From an uncultured Mycoplasmatota bacterium (GTDB lineage Bacteria > Bacillota_I > Bacilli_A > RF39 > UBA660): a DNA stretch of 40,581 bases. Positions 15,755 through 21,725 of the stretch are shown one piece after another. The translations under genes and the position numbers were made by a program. The notes below the pieces were generated by a model. The model was given only the letters and a program-made list of their open reading frames with translations. It made no database searches and was not told the DNA's origin. Within the stretch, counting starts at the first letter, position 1. The number at the start of each line of letters is the position of its first letter. The DNA is taken from NCBI GenBank assembly GCA_946497925.1, contig CAMMMG010000007.1, forward strand, positions 1 to 40,581, read 5' to 3'.

Positions 15755-16819
15755 CTATAATATTCTCCCATAAGCATCCTCCTGGGGTTTCTTTAAGTAT
15801 TCTTTAAAAAGTATTTTATTATACATATTCATTTGTAATTTATAACACTTACCATGAGAACTATGTCCTAACCAAGAATTCCATTCAAGCACTGTCTTAT
15901 CTAAGTCAAGAAGACCTCTTTCATAAAGTAGATTCCAACGTCTTACTTTTCTTTTAATCTTTTTAATACTTCTTTTCCTAAGTAATCTATAACTCTCATA
16001 TATCCTAAATCCACAGAAATCGAGTCCCATCTTATTAGGATAATATCTACTCTTATTATTAAGTTCTAAATGAAGTCTTATCTCTACATATTTCTCTACT
16101 TCCTTAAGAACATTCCTAGCTTCTTCCTTACTCCTAACAAACATAATAAAGTCATCCATATATCTTACATAATATTTAACTTTAAGTACTTCTTTAACAT
16201 AATGATCAAGTTCATTCATATAAATATTGGCAAAGAACTGAGAAGTATAATTACCAATAGGAAGCCCTACCTCTTCACCATCATTATATATAAATTCATA
16301 AGTCAAAGCTAAGAGTTTATCATCTCTAATAAATCTCTTTAAGATATTATATAAGATATCTTTATCTATATTATAAAAGAATCCCTTAATATCACATTTA
16401 ACAATATAATAAGTACCATATTTATTTTTCATCTTCTGCATATACTCTTGAGCTCTATCAACCGCTTTATGAGTTCCTTTACCTTCAATACAGGCATAAG
16501 AATCATTAATAAAACGAGGAACAACATAAGGTTTAATAAATTCATGAATATACCACTGATGAACAATTCTATCCACATAAGGTAATGCTCTTATAACTCT
16601 TTCTTTAGGTTCATATATTTTAAAAGTTCTATATTTACCCATTTTATATGTACCATTTTTTAATTTCTTATAAAGATTAACTATATTAGTCTCTAAATCT
16701 ATTTCAAACTTTAAAACTTCCCTAGAATATCTCTTAGTCTTACAAGCACGTTCATGAGCATCTAACAATGCTTTAATAGTTAAATGTTTATCAAACTCAT
16801 TTCTTATCGTGTGAGGCAT
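15755..16819 (-). CDS. Reverse transcriptase of the diversity-generating retroelement class
   Basis: KCDIKGFFYNID, GLPIGNYTSQFFANIYMNELDHYVKE (DGR-type GxxxSQ motif), YYVRYMDDFIMF catalytic motif; overlaps the Avd-like gene. Confidence 0.95.
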   Translation of the reverse strand: MPHTIRNEFDKHLTIKALLDAHERACKTKRYSREVLKFEIDLETNIVNLYKKLKNGTYKMGKYRTFKIYEPKERVIRALPYVDRIVHQWYIHEFIKPYVVPRFINDSYACIEGKGTHKAVDRAQEYMQKMKNKYGTYYIVKCDIKGFFYNIDKDILYNILKRFIRDDKLLALTYEFIYNDGEEVGLPIGNYTSQFFANIYMNELDHYVKEVLKVKYYVRYMDDFIMFVRSKEEARNVLKEVEKYVEIRLHLELNNKSRYYPNKMGLDFCGFRIYESYRLLRKRSIKKIKRKVRRWNLLYERGLLDLDKTVLEWNSWLGHSSHGKCYKLQMNMYNKILFKEYLKKPQEDAYGRIL

Positions 16820-17160
16820 GATCTAATCCAACCTCCATTAAGATTAGAAATATTAGTAAGTTTCTTACTCCATGCCGTATAATTTTTAGAATTAATATAT
16901 TTTTTCTTATGAGAAACTCTAATTAATACTTTAATAATTTTAAGATTAGCATCAAGTTCATTTAAATATGAAAGTCTTTTTTTCTTATCATATTCTTTCT
17001 GAGCATAAATAATATCTTTAAGACCATCATAAGTAGAATTTTTAATATCTTGAGCTAAAGAAAATCTTTCACTCTTAGGATATTTTAAAAGTATTGAAAG
17101 AGTATAATAAATAAGCTCTACATATTGTTTATAGATAACTAATCCTTCTAAATCATCCAT
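16804..17160 (-). CDS. avd: Avd-like DGR accessory variability determinant (four-helix bundle)
   Basis: 118 aa, helical, YPKSERFSLAQDIKNSTYDGLKDIIYAQ...LDANLKIIKVLIRVSHKKKYI...GGWIRS resembles Avd/S23-like proteins; start overlaps the RT gene by 16 nt. Confidence 0.88.
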   Translation of the reverse strand: MDDLEGLVIYKQYVELIYYTLSILLKYPKSERFSLAQDIKNSTYDGLKDIIYAQKEYDKKKRLSYLNELDANLKIIKVLIRVSHKKKYINSKNYTAWSKKLTNISNLNGGWIRSCLTR

Positions 17161-17251
17161 AGTCGCCCTCCAAAATGTTATATTTTTCTAGTATTCATCT
17201 CCTACTAACTAGAAAAAAATTACTTCGTTTTTTTATTTGTATATACAAAAA

Positions 17252-17487
17252 GGAAAAAACTTTCTATGATATTTATTTTTTATTATATAAATAATAACTT
17301 AAATAATTCTTATATCATAGTCCTCATCACGAGGCGGAACGAGCCATTGTTGTTAGCATTACCAATGTTCCAACTATTAGTATTGAAATAGAAAACGCCC
17401 GCATTATTACCACCAGTATTATAGTTACCGCCGCGCAACATGAACAAACATCCACTAAAAAGAATATAGTTTTTAAATTTTTCCCTA
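17252..17487 (-). ncRNA. Template-like unit R1 (core 17340-17426, 87 nt)
   Basis: Reads LRGG-NYNTGGNNAGVFYFNTNSWNIGNANNNGS-FRLVM; leader 17475-17487 complementary to trailer 17252-17265. Confidence 0.7.
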
Positions 17488-17596
17488 CTTAAAAATTAAC
17501 ATAAAAAACAAAAAGATACAATAAAAAAGTCCTCTAATATTCAATTATTACTAATTAGAGAAACATTACTTTATTTTTTATTTGACAAAGCAAAAA

Positions 17597-17820
17597 GGAA
17601 AAAACTCTCTATGATATTCATTTTTTATTATATCTATAATAACTTAAATAATTCTTATATCATAGTCTCTCATCACGAGGCGGAACGAATTGTTAATGTT
17701 ACCAGCGGCCTGAGTAGTAGTACGATTAAAGTTGAAAACACCTGCATTAGTAGTATCGTTATAGTTACCGCCGCGCACCAACTAAATCATATTACAAAAT
17801 AACTTTTAAGTTTTTCCCAA
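17597..17820 (-). ncRNA. Template-like unit R2 (core 17686-17766, 81 nt)
   Basis: Reads VRGG-NYNDTTNAGVFNFNRTTTQAAGNINNS-FRLVM; leader 17808-17820 complementary to trailer 17597-17610. Confidence 0.7.
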
Positions 17821-17951
17821 CAAAAAAGTACCATAAATTACTAAGAAAAACAATATATATAAATAAATAATTTTAAACACAATACTTTCTAGTATTCGAA
17901 AAACCTACTAACTAGAAACATACTACTTCATTTTTTCATTCATAAAATGAA

Positions 17952-18174
17952 TTGGAAAAAACTTTCTATGATATTTATTTTTTATTATATACATAATAAC
18001 TTAAATAATTCTTATATCATAGTCTCTCATCACGAGGCGGAACGAGCCATTGTTGTTACCATTACCAAGATTCCAGGTATTGAAGTTGAAAATACCTGCA
18101 TTAGAAGTGTTGTTATTGTTACCGCCGCGCAACAACTAAATCACATCACAAAATAACTTTTAAGTTTCTCCCAA
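17952..18174 (-). ncRNA. Template-like unit R3 (core 18043-18120, 78 nt)
   Basis: Reads LRGG-NNNNTSNAGIFNFNTWNLGNGNNNGS-FRLVM; leader 18162-18174 complementary over 13 nt to trailer 17952-17964. Confidence 0.7.
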
Positions 18175-18303
18175 CAAAAAAGTACCATAAATTACTAAGA
18201 AAAACAATCTATATAAACAAATAGTTTTAAACACATACTTTCTAGTATTCGAAAAACCTACTAACTAGAAATATATTACTTCATTTTTTATTCATAAAAT
18301 GAA

Positions 18304-18526
18304 TTGGAAAAAAACTCTCTATGATAAATATTTTTTATTATATCTATAATAACTTAAATAATTCTTATATCATAGTTCTCATCACGAGGCGGAACGAGTT
18401 GTTACTGTTAGGACCACCAAGATTAATAGTTGCGTTAAAGTTGAAAACACCCGCATTAGTAGTATTATTATAACCACCGCCGCGCACCATAACATAAATA
18501 AAACGGTATTTAAAAGTTTTTCCCAA
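18304..18526 (-). ncRNA. Template-like unit R4 (core 18395-18475, 81 nt)
   Basis: Reads VRGG-GYNNTTNAGVFNFNATINLGGPNSNNS-FRLVM; leader 18512-18526 complementary to trailer 18304-18318. Confidence 0.7.
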
Positions 18527-18550: not shown

Positions 18551-18573
18551 CAAAAACAAGGCTAAGAGCCTTG
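18551..18573 (-). terminator. Intrinsic terminator separating R5 from R4
   Basis: Minus strand CAAGGCT-CTT-AGCCTTG-TTTTTGTT. Confidence 0.65.
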
Positions 18574-18711
18574 CCTATGATTACTGATATTCGCCCAAAT
18601 AAACTACTAACCATCATCATATATATAAGTTTACTTATAAAAGTAGGAATTAAATCTCTAGGATATTAATTTTTTATTATATACACAATAACTTAAATTA
18701 CGATTATATCG

Positions 18712-18824
18712 TAGTCACGCTCATCACGAGGCGGAACGAGCCTTACGAGCATCGTATCAAAATAGAGCAACAAAGAATATTGACGAAATCAATTACACAA
18801 AAAACCACCGCCGCGCAACAACCA
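18712..18824 (-). repeat. Repeat R5: 113-bp exact copy of the target gene variable region (core 18737-18806, 70 nt)
   Basis: Identical to 19870-19982 by direct comparison. Confidence 0.95.
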
Positions 18825-19011
18825 AAATATTTGGAAGCAATAAAAGAGCGAAGTACCAACATCAAGAGAAAACAGTACAATGATTTAATCCCTATCATCT
18901 AATTATTAGATGACAATTTCATTGTACAAAAACTAAAATTAAATAACAATGAAAGTTTTTTCCAGTTTTACTATCGGTTAATATGATATAATTAACATTG
19001 AAGGAGGAAGT

Positions 19012-19671
19012 ATGGATACAGCAGTTTTAAACAATATTACTTATGGTATGTATATAGTAACTACAAAAGATAATAATAAAAATGTAGGCTGTATTATTAA
19101 TACAGTAATGCAAATAACATCAAAAAATCCTATAATATCTATAAGTTTAAACAAAGAAAACTATACAAATAAAGCATTAAAAGAAAACAAAAAATGTGCA
19201 ATATCTATTTTAACAGAAGAAACAAAGCAAAAAACAATTTCAACATTTGGATATTTTTCTTCAAAGGACATAGACAAATTCAAAGATATAGAATGGGAGG
19301 AAATAAATAACTTACCTGTAGTATTAGAAAATATATCAGGATATATAATAGGAGAAGTTATAGATATAATAGATGTTAATACTCATGATGTATTTTTAAT
19401 AAAGATTAAAAACACAAAACAAACATCTAATAAAACACCAATGACATACAAATACTATCATGAAGTTTTAAAAGGTAAATCACCTTCTAAAGCACCAACA
19501 TATAATGAAACAAAGGAGAAGGAAAATATGAAAAAAGGAAATAAATATAAATGCACAATCTGTGGTTATATATATGATGATGAAAAAGAAGACATAAAAT
19601 TTGAACACTTACCCGATGATTGGAAATGTCCAATATGTGGAGTAGGTAAAGATAATTTTATTAAAATATAA
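19012..19671 (+). CDS. Flavin reductase-domain/rubredoxin fusion protein
   Basis: N-terminal flavin reductase-like domain; C-terminal rubredoxin [13 protein letters not shown]...[16 protein letters not shown]. Confidence 0.9.
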
Positions 19672-19749: not shown

Positions 19750-19780
19750 GCCTCGGGGCAAAAAAGAGGGCCCCGAGGCT
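19750..19780 (-). terminator. Intrinsic terminator downstream of the DGR target gene
   Basis: Minus strand GCCTCGGGGC...GCCCCGAGGC (10-bp GC-rich stem) followed by a T-rich run. Confidence 0.85.
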
Positions 19781-19855
19781 AATCATCACGAATAATTCGA
19801 CAATATTCTTTCTTTCTCTATTTTTACCATCTTATTTTGCTCAGTGAAGAAGAGT

Positions 19856-19871
19856 TAGTCCTTACGGACTA
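19856..19871 (-). promoter_or_regulatory. DGR variable-region downstream hairpin with GTAA tetraloop
   Basis: Minus strand TAGTCC-GTAA-GGACTA immediately 3' of the conserved TTCCGCCTCGTGATGAGCGTGAC segment; resembles known DGR target-site hairpins. Confidence 0.8.
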
Positions 19872-19982
19872 GTCACGCTCATCACGAGGCGGAACGAGCC
19901 TTACGAGCATCGTATCAAAATAGAGCAACAAAGAATATTGACGAAATCAATTACACAAAAAACCACCGCCGCGCAACAACCA
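19870..19982 (-). repeat. DGR variable region R6 at the 3' end of the target gene
   Basis: Shares GCGCGGCGGT and TTCCGCCTCGTGATGAG boundaries with R1-R5; core 19895-19964. Confidence 0.88.
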
Positions 19983-21725
19983 TGGGTACTCCTCACTTAC
20001 CATCGTCCTAGCATCATTATACCATCCTGATGTCTCACTTAATCCATGTGATAAACATTCACTTCCATTACATGCTGTACTAGGATTATTACTTGTATAC
20101 TTGTTATAATACTTTGCTTCTGGCATACTCTCAAATCCACTTGAAGCTACCATATCGTTATAGTTTCCCATAACATACTCCCAAGCTCCTCCTGACATAT
20201 CATATACACCATAGATTGTTCCCGTTGTACTGGCTCCTACTCCTTTTCCTGTCATTCCTTCTTCTGTTCTTATATTATTATCATATGTATATTGACATCC
20301 ATAATCTGTATTTGCATTACTTGGACTTCCATAACTACATCCCGTTATATAACTATCTGATTTATTTTGATATACTTCCTTTTCTGCACCTGTATAGTTC
20401 TCATTTCCTAATTTCCCATATTTACTTTGACTTAAATAACTTACTACTGCCCATTCATTATTTTTCATAGAATGTGAGTTCATATTTGTACTAAATCCAT
20501 ATCTATTTCCTTCTGCACTCACTTTTGTCGCTACTGCATGAATATTACTTACATTTATATTTCTCCAACTTGTTACATTTGGTTTTATCATCGCATCAAG
20601 ATTAGTTACATTTCCTCCTCCATATTCGGCACTCGGATTACTACTACTTGTCTCAAACTTTCCTACCCATATTCCACTAAGTTCTTCATCACCAAATGTA
20701 AATGCATCTGGAGTATACCAATTTTTAGGTTTTTCCGTTGCAAGATATTTTGCAGTACCTGTATCTTTTTCATCTTTACTTATAAACTTAATATCAATCT
20801 CTCCTGGTAAAGCTGCTGTTGGATTACTGTTCAAATACACTCCTCTTTTTCCGTAATAGTTTGTTCCATTCTCACTTGCTATTGTATAACTATATCTCGG
20901 TATCCATACCCACATTGTTTCTACATCATCCATATTTATTTCTGTTCCAACTGGAGCGCTTATGTATTCAGCTAACTTATCACTTTTTACAGTAACTGCA
21001 TTAGCCCATATACCCATATCATAGTTATACCAACCATTACTAGTATCCGTTTTAACCCAATTATAACCATCATGTTTAATTGCTATCATATTACTATCCA
21101 TATCCGGAGCATTAACTGCATCATTTCCTTGTTCAAAATCAGGGTCATCTACTTGTTGTGTTGCAAATACTTTAAGTTGTCCTAAATACACTTTACCCAT
21201 CGCTTCATTAGTAGCATTTATATTTAACCAAACTTTTAACTCTCCATCAATTACTTCTTTAGAATCTATAACTCCATAACTTATAATTGATGAATCAGAA
21301 AGACTTCCTGTAAATGTTCTATCTCCCATTTTAAGTTCATATCTTACATCTCTAGGATCTAACAATTCACAACTTCCTCCATCTGTTGTTTGACAATTAG
21401 ATAAAGCTTCTTCATCATCTACTAATGAAAGTGTATAATATAATCCTATATTACTTTTATTCTCAAGTGAAAACTGATAAGGTGTACCACTTTTTCCATC
21501 ATCATCATATGTTGGAATAACATTCACAAGTTGTATACCATCATTTTTTTCATTTAAGACTAAATCTATATTACCAACTATAATTTGAACATCCTTTTTT
21601 CCTTTTAAAGTTGTCCTAAGCCAAGCATATGAAACACCAATAATTATAATTAAAAGAACTACAAGAGTAATAATAGCCACCTTTTTCTTATTCTCTTTCA
21701 AAGTTCTCCCTATATTTTTAACCAT
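19947..21725 (-). CDS. DGR target: TasA/camelysin-like N-terminus plus FGE-sulfatase/C-type-lectin-fold domain, truncated in the variable region
   Basis: N-terminal TM; SYAWLRTTLKGKKDVQIIVGNIDLVL; GVYDMSGGAWEYVMGN and WLLRGGGF typical of the FGE/CLec fold; TGA stop at 19947-19949 inside the variable core. Confidence 0.85.
   Translation of the reverse strand: MVKNIGRTLKENKKKVAIITLVVLLIIIIGVSYAWLRTTLKGKKDVQIIVGNIDLVLNEKNDGIQLVNVIPTYDDDGKSGTPYQFSLENKSNIGLYYTLSLVDDEEALSNCQTTDGGSCELLDPRDVRYELKMGDRTFTGSLSDSSIISYGVIDSKEVIDGELKVWLNINATNEAMGKVYLGQLKVFATQQVDDPDFEQGNDAVNAPDMDSNMIAIKHDGYNWVKTDTSNGWYNYDMGIWANAVTVKSDKLAEYISAPVGTEINMDDVETMWVWIPRYSYTIASENGTNYYGKRGVYLNSNPTAALPGEIDIKFISKDEKDTGTAKYLATEKPKNWYTPDAFTFGDEELSGIWVGKFETSSSNPSAEYGGGNVTNLDAMIKPNVTSWRNINVSNIHAVATKVSAEGNRYGFSTNMNSHSMKNNEWAVVSYLSQSKYGKLGNENYTGAEKEVYQNKSDSYITGCSYGSPSNANTDYGCQYTYDNNIRTEEGMTGKGVGASTTGTIYGVYDMSGGAWEYVMGNYNDMVASSGFESMPEAKYYNKYTSNNPSTACNGSECLSHGLSETSGWYNDARTMVSEEYPWLLRGGGFLCN

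Follow-up and report, generated by a model that had tools for sequence, protein, structure and literature searches.

Diversity-generating retroelements (DGRs) are usually described as systems in which one template is mutated into a target. In silent-cassette antigenic variation, as in vls of Borrelia and pilS of Neisseria, an expressed site is refreshed from an array of silent cassettes. The hairpin requirement in DGRs has been described (PMC3240598). DGRs with more than one template repeat (TR) have also been reported: one cited case with six unique TRs is called atypical and has few A-to-N changes (PMC6642488), and for T. denticola several TRs per human individual are mentioned (PMC4891356). 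Neither a tandem array feeding one site nor a null template is described in the accessible parts of these two papers. Our literature search on DGRs with arrayed TRs, with silent cassettes or with templates that are null or carry a stop yielded nothing beyond them; multi-TR DGRs may be better covered in a 2018 NAR survey, which lay outside this search.

The stretch of DNA analysed here (40,581 nt, termed the window) is contig C7 of the draft genome G000, which comprises 1.2 Mb in 102 contigs. Among named genomes, the closest relatives belong to uncultured Bacilli and Candidatus Onthousia, and every one is a metagenome bin. On its minus strand the window carries a target gene, six related repeats (R1 to R6), the accessory protein Avd and a reverse transcriptase (RT). 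With a DGR-type RT, an Avd and a hairpin just 3' of the variable repeat, the locus is a DGR of chicken-gut Bacilli of the Candidatus Onthousia group. The truncated form of the target is referred to as OFF and the full-length form as ON. A close relative, G010, shares several of the following features:

15755 to 16819, minus strand: DGR reverse transcriptase, intact, 354 aa (Pfam RVT_1, 4e-19; PHROG 1423 reverse transcriptase, 6e-118)
16804 to 17160, minus strand: accessory protein Avd (Pfam bAvd, 3e-23; NCBIfam NF033474 DivGenRetAVD, 84 bits, above the cut-off of 80)
17340 to 17426, minus strand: R1 core, ordinary template, 87 nt, in frame and stop-free
17686 to 17766, minus strand: R2 core, ordinary template, 81 nt, in frame and stop-free; core shared with G010
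18043 to 18120, minus strand: R3 core, ordinary template, 78 nt, in frame and stop-free; core shared with G010
18395 to 18475, minus strand: R4 core, ordinary template, 81 nt, in frame and stop-free; core shared with G010
19750 to 19779, minus strand: terminator of the target gene (direct reading and partial prediction)
19856 to 19871, minus strand: hairpin TAGTCC-GTAA-GGACTA with loop GTAA, directly after the variable repeat; kept in relatives, with the ON stop codon (TAA) within the loop
19870 to 19982, minus strand: R6, 3'-terminal variable repeat of the target gene, currently a copy of R5 (OFF; repeat comparison)
19947 to 21725, minus strand: target gene as now read, truncated, 592 aa, with an N-terminal membrane segment and a C-terminal part weakly like FGE-sulfatase (C-type-lectin type)

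The closest solved structure to the RT is 8ub7, a reverse transcriptase (E 5.8e-46), which we take to be the DGR RT of phage BPP-1. Among the 35 genomes of the genus, 11 match the window RT at E 1e-60 or better, and no relatives were found in the viral contigs searched. The same genome holds two more distant RT matches, G000:C23:769-1668 (L002, 35% identity) and G000:C26:5774-6424 (L003, 34%). In G010 the DGR RT gene is split (L034, 7241-9126, minus strand) with Rfam group II intron matches between its two pieces, so that a group II intron seems to lie within it, judging from these matches. A flavin reductase-rubredoxin fusion gene (19012-19671) is located on the plus strand between the target gene and R5.

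That the target is of the C-type-lectin kind has weak support. Its FGE-sulfatase match lies below the cut-off in all nine members (best 4e-4), an AlphaFold model of the ON domain reached a pLDDT of 31, and a PDB profile search with the target gave no meaningful match.

Ordinary units of the template array

The core of R6 (19895-19964) measures 70 nt, which is not a multiple of three, and a TGA at 19947-19949 ends the target protein at ...WLLRGGGFLCN. The earlier note, made from the window alone, had regarded this as a frameshifted, OFF-like state that R1 to R4 would repair, template choice thereby switching the protein between two forms. The cores of R1 to R4 are indeed all stop-free multiples of three. 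Set into the context of R6, each of them leads to the predicted end SFRLVMSVTSP followed by a stop, the TAA lying in the hairpin loop, and natural full-length proteins with this end occur in the five relatives G010, G013, G016, G015 and G018.

Readable arrays were found in nine genomes, with 3 to 16 units per array, 3 to 15 of them ordinary. All 69 non-null cores (69/69) are in frame and stop-free, where about 15% would be expected per shuffled core, which indicates that the units are kept usable; no combined p-value is given for the 69 cores because duplicated units are not independent. An RT-associated RNA element also seems to accompany each template individually. Stretches resembling RT-14 RNA (Rfam RF02921) follow all four ordinary units on the minus strand, at 17180-17276, 17526-17621, 17886-17978 and 18233-18328, with scores of 26.9-36.3 bits that all stay below the gathering score of 48.1; in the same search the stretch after R5 was unmatched.

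The template array appears specific to this genus because the resolvable loci in other genera of the family show the usual repeat pair just upstream of the RT, one template and one target; several contigs from other genera are too short to tell. Further genes with variable repeats lie far from the array (L073-L077, L082 and L084 in G002, G004, G028 and G009), in part with a different 3'UTR, and probably serve this element as additional targets. A comparison of unit pairs gave no clear case of a variable repeat having been archived in the array.

Donors of the variable repeat

In the eight genomes with both an array and a variable repeat, each repeat matches exactly one unit of its own array, and the second-best unit always differs at no fewer than nine non-adenine sites (at least 9). 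Donor units and changes relative to the donor were as follows:

G013: first ordinary unit; 11/25 adenines and 0/75 other bases changed
G016: first ordinary unit; 17/27 adenines and 0/76 other bases changed
G026: RT-proximal unit; 15/31 adenines and 0/69 other bases changed
G008: RT-proximal unit; 14/29 adenines and 1/68 other bases changed, plus a 3-nt gap
G015: 13th of 16 units counted from the target; 5/26 adenines and 0/77 other bases changed
G010: RT-proximal unit; 7/24 adenines and 1/85 other bases changed
G032: R5; 1/8 adenines (A-to-G) and 0/83 other bases changed, plus one T (T-run slip)
Window: R5; 0/12 adenines and 0/80 other bases changed

In total, 70 of 182 template adenines were changed, compared with 2 of 613 other bases. 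The six ON relatives with ordinary donors account for 69/162 adenines (about 43%) and 2/450 other bases, so that changes there are adenine-specific. The window alone is unable to reveal this signature because R6 and R5 are without any difference. R1 to R4 are competent coding templates, as had been proposed; simple repair does not describe their effect, since with about 43% of adenines altered each switch gives a new variant. The element was active recently, as G026 and G008 have gene bodies that are 99.9% identical and repeats that differ though copied from the same unit.

Template choice itself is borne out by the differing array positions of the donors across these eight genomes, and the ON form occurs in G010; switching within a population is suggested by comparison between genomes. 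Truncation is not the state of all relatives, since G010, whose target gene body is 98.3% identical to that of the window (dN/dS 0.21), is ON.

R5 and the 3' untranslated region

The unit nearest the target, R5, and its surroundings comprise the following features:

18554 to 18576, minus strand: terminator-like hairpin after R5
18699 to 18713, minus strand: small inverted repeat TACGAT-ATA-ATCGTA after R5, in the place of the target hairpin; kept in most R5 units (direct reading)
18712 to 18824, minus strand: full identity block of R5 with R6, 113 nt, 100% (repeat comparison)
18737 to 18806, minus strand: R5 core, candidate null template, 70 nt with 17% A, each of the three frames closed by a stop; 100% identical to R6
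18921 to 18949, minus strand: promoter-like TTGTTA-17-TACAAT upstream of R5 (consensus match only; block alike across seven null units)
19785 to 19850, minus strand: 3'UTR element complementary to R5-class cores; its core element (19789-19821) is near-invariant in 12 genomes

The 113-nt identity between R5 and R6 is far beyond chance and makes R5 the source of the truncated state. Of the earlier description of R6, the truncated, OFF-like state therefore stands and the frameshift does not: R6 is a copy of the conserved R5, and its stop precedes any frameshift effect. A frameshifted ordinary core was rejected as an origin, for the R5/R6 core cannot be aligned as a shifted R1 to R4 core and belongs to a separate conserved class. 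As to direction, G010 has R2 to R4 in common with the window and an R5 that is two T's longer, and its gene is ON and copied from a different unit. This argues for copying from R5 into the gene, and copying from R6 into R5 is unlikely. The promoter-like site and the terminator-like hairpin suggest that R5 may be a short transcript of its own.

R5-class units are present in seven of the nine arrays (G000, G010, G013, G016, G015, G032 and G002) and in all seven are the array unit nearest the target. They contain 9-17% A and 44-55% T, and many have lengths that three does not divide. In 7/7 the target frame is interrupted by a stop; closure of all three frames is found in the unit of the window, not in every unit. 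Each of the nine arrays (9/9) contains, once, the full or nearly full length of the flank that lies downstream of the R5 site. At this site a coding core instead of the null core is found in G026 and G008, so the null unit is not essential. That core (G026, L029 3970-4069; G008, L085 6235-6334) resembles an adenine-changed copy of another array unit, from which it differs at 11 adenines and 5 other positions; the R5 site might thus itself be open to incoming copies. A second species, G032, carries an R5-type copy as well, which brings the known OFF genomes to two.

The best reading of the locus is, in our view, template choice from a DGR cassette array with R5 as a null template, for which we estimate a probability of about two in three. 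Each ordinary unit (R1 to R4) would be a template repeat followed by an RNA element of its own. RT and Avd would copy the RNA of one unit while changing adenines, and the cDNA would take the place of the 3'-terminal variable segment in the single target gene, so that the displayed protein would be set by unit choice and adenine mutation. R5, nearest the target, would be an A-poor, stop-closed null template with its own promoter-like and terminator-like sequences, copied by the same RT and selected as an OFF switch. Its copying into the gene would give a truncated protein, and the new segment would pair with the 3'UTR as a long hairpin that may silence the transcript. The window gene would thus be OFF because the last recorded copying used R5. 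A later copy of one of R1 to R4 would turn it on with a new variant, making the switch reversible within a population.

How R5 enters the gene is where this reading meets a serious rival. Ordinary units might home by mutagenic reverse transcription while R5 enters by RT-free homologous recombination, that is gene conversion, over its long shared ends; the gene would still be switched off by a null cassette. The ends that R5 shares with the target are longer than those of R1 to R4 and include CGTGACTA after the repeat. Across the two R5 copies just 1/20 adenines is altered, compared with 69/162 for ordinary donors, and the context-corrected probability of zero adenine change in the window is about 0.005, figures that count against the null-template reading; R5 may therefore be copied by another route. 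However, the adenine deficit is not decisive because the events are few, and selection on ON variants and repeated rounds may have inflated the ordinary rate. R5 moreover retains a template-like downstream element in line with the ordinary units, and the sole base change in the G032 copy falls on an adenine. On balance we consider entry by recombination rather unlikely.

R5 further shows complementarity to the 3'UTR of the target. The UTR element follows the hairpin, reads AAAATAAGATGGTAAAAATAGAGAAAGAAAGAATATTGTCGAATTATTCG in the window, and is almost unchanged in 12 genomes with one copy in each. Between the R6 core and 19796-19824 there is an inverted repeat of 29 nt at 90%. R5 cores pair with the UTR element of their own genome at -34 to -49 kcal/mol, and ordinary cores at -17 on average; the energy of the R5 pairing was reached by 0/500 shuffles in each of six out of six genomes. 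Although R5 cores differ from that of the window at 15-33 sites, they pair better than after equal numbers of random changes (fractions of 1000 pairing as well: 0.010, 0.000, 0.001 and 0.013). By direct reading, a UTR change in G032 from TCGAATT to TCAAATT is matched by AATTTGA in its R5. As the UTR hardly varies between the genomes, the strength of pairing shows no clear species specificity. The number of predicted pairs between variable region and UTR is 42 in the OFF transcript of the window and 36 in that of G032, compared with 0 to 10 in ON transcripts, and OFF transcripts are thus predicted to fold into a long hairpin. Possible roles of this pairing are silencing of the OFF transcript, control in trans or an effect on the next homing event, and selection for pairing with the UTR could have produced the stop in R5 as a side effect. 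We tentatively propose, at somewhat short of an even chance, that in a retroelement diversifying a surface protein a dedicated OFF template has evolved which is A-poor and frame-closing and, after being copied in, pairs with a co-evolved 3'UTR element and silences the transcript; one machine would then provide variation, choice of template lineage and switching similar to phase variation.

In an alternative reading, R5 would be mainly a regulatory RNA pairing in trans with the target 3'UTR, its entry into the gene being a side effect of template-like ends. Conservation of the complementarity in 6/6 genomes, the promoter-like and terminator-like sites of R5 and the retention of the UTR element in ON genomes are consistent with such a role. 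Yet the element is retained also in G026 and G008, which are without a null core, and an R5 copy is the present state in two of eight genomes and hence not rare. We regard a mainly regulatory R5 as quite unlikely. That R5 is decayed junk and the OFF gene a pseudogene, or that the 113-nt repeat is an assembly artefact, is very improbable: the repeat is short and identical and the genome a 102-contig draft, but the place, sequence and complementarity of R5 are conserved in seven genomes, gene body (dN/dS 0.21) and RT are intact, and the OFF repeat of G032 differs from its own R5 at two places and so is not a collapsed repeat.

The artefact that the earlier note had considered is weakened by these G032 differences, and an artefact confined to the window, where R5 and R6 are identical, is unlikely. 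With the rest of the target intact, a dN/dS of 0.21 against G010 and an intact RT, the OFF gene is not an old pseudogene, and the OFF state is most likely real and recent.

Relation to known systems

Here the template is chosen from an array in which all ordinary members are kept coding, and DGR variation comes to resemble cassette-based antigenic variation plus mutation. From a conserved null template it would follow that DGRs are able to turn genes off as well; it would further be a natural test of what makes the copying of a template mutagenic or not. Since the donor is still identifiable from each variable repeat, genome and metagenome sequences suffice to follow template choice, and no experiment is needed for this.

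With DGRs of the phage BPP-1 type the locus shares the RT, Avd, template repeats, a single target gene that ends in a variable repeat, adenine-specific changes and a hairpin after the variable repeat that holds the stop codon. The loop of the hairpin here is GTAA, in contrast to GRNA in phage DGRs. The locus differs further in that one site is served by as many as 16 different templates, each seemingly followed by an RNA element of its own, and in that one conserved template bears a stop. As in the vls and pilS systems, the expressed site is renewed from an array of cassettes; unlike in these systems, copying of ordinary units bears the adenine signature of an RT and adds mutations. Its parts make the locus a DGR, while in its mode of action it is like antigenic variation from cassettes to which mutation has been added.
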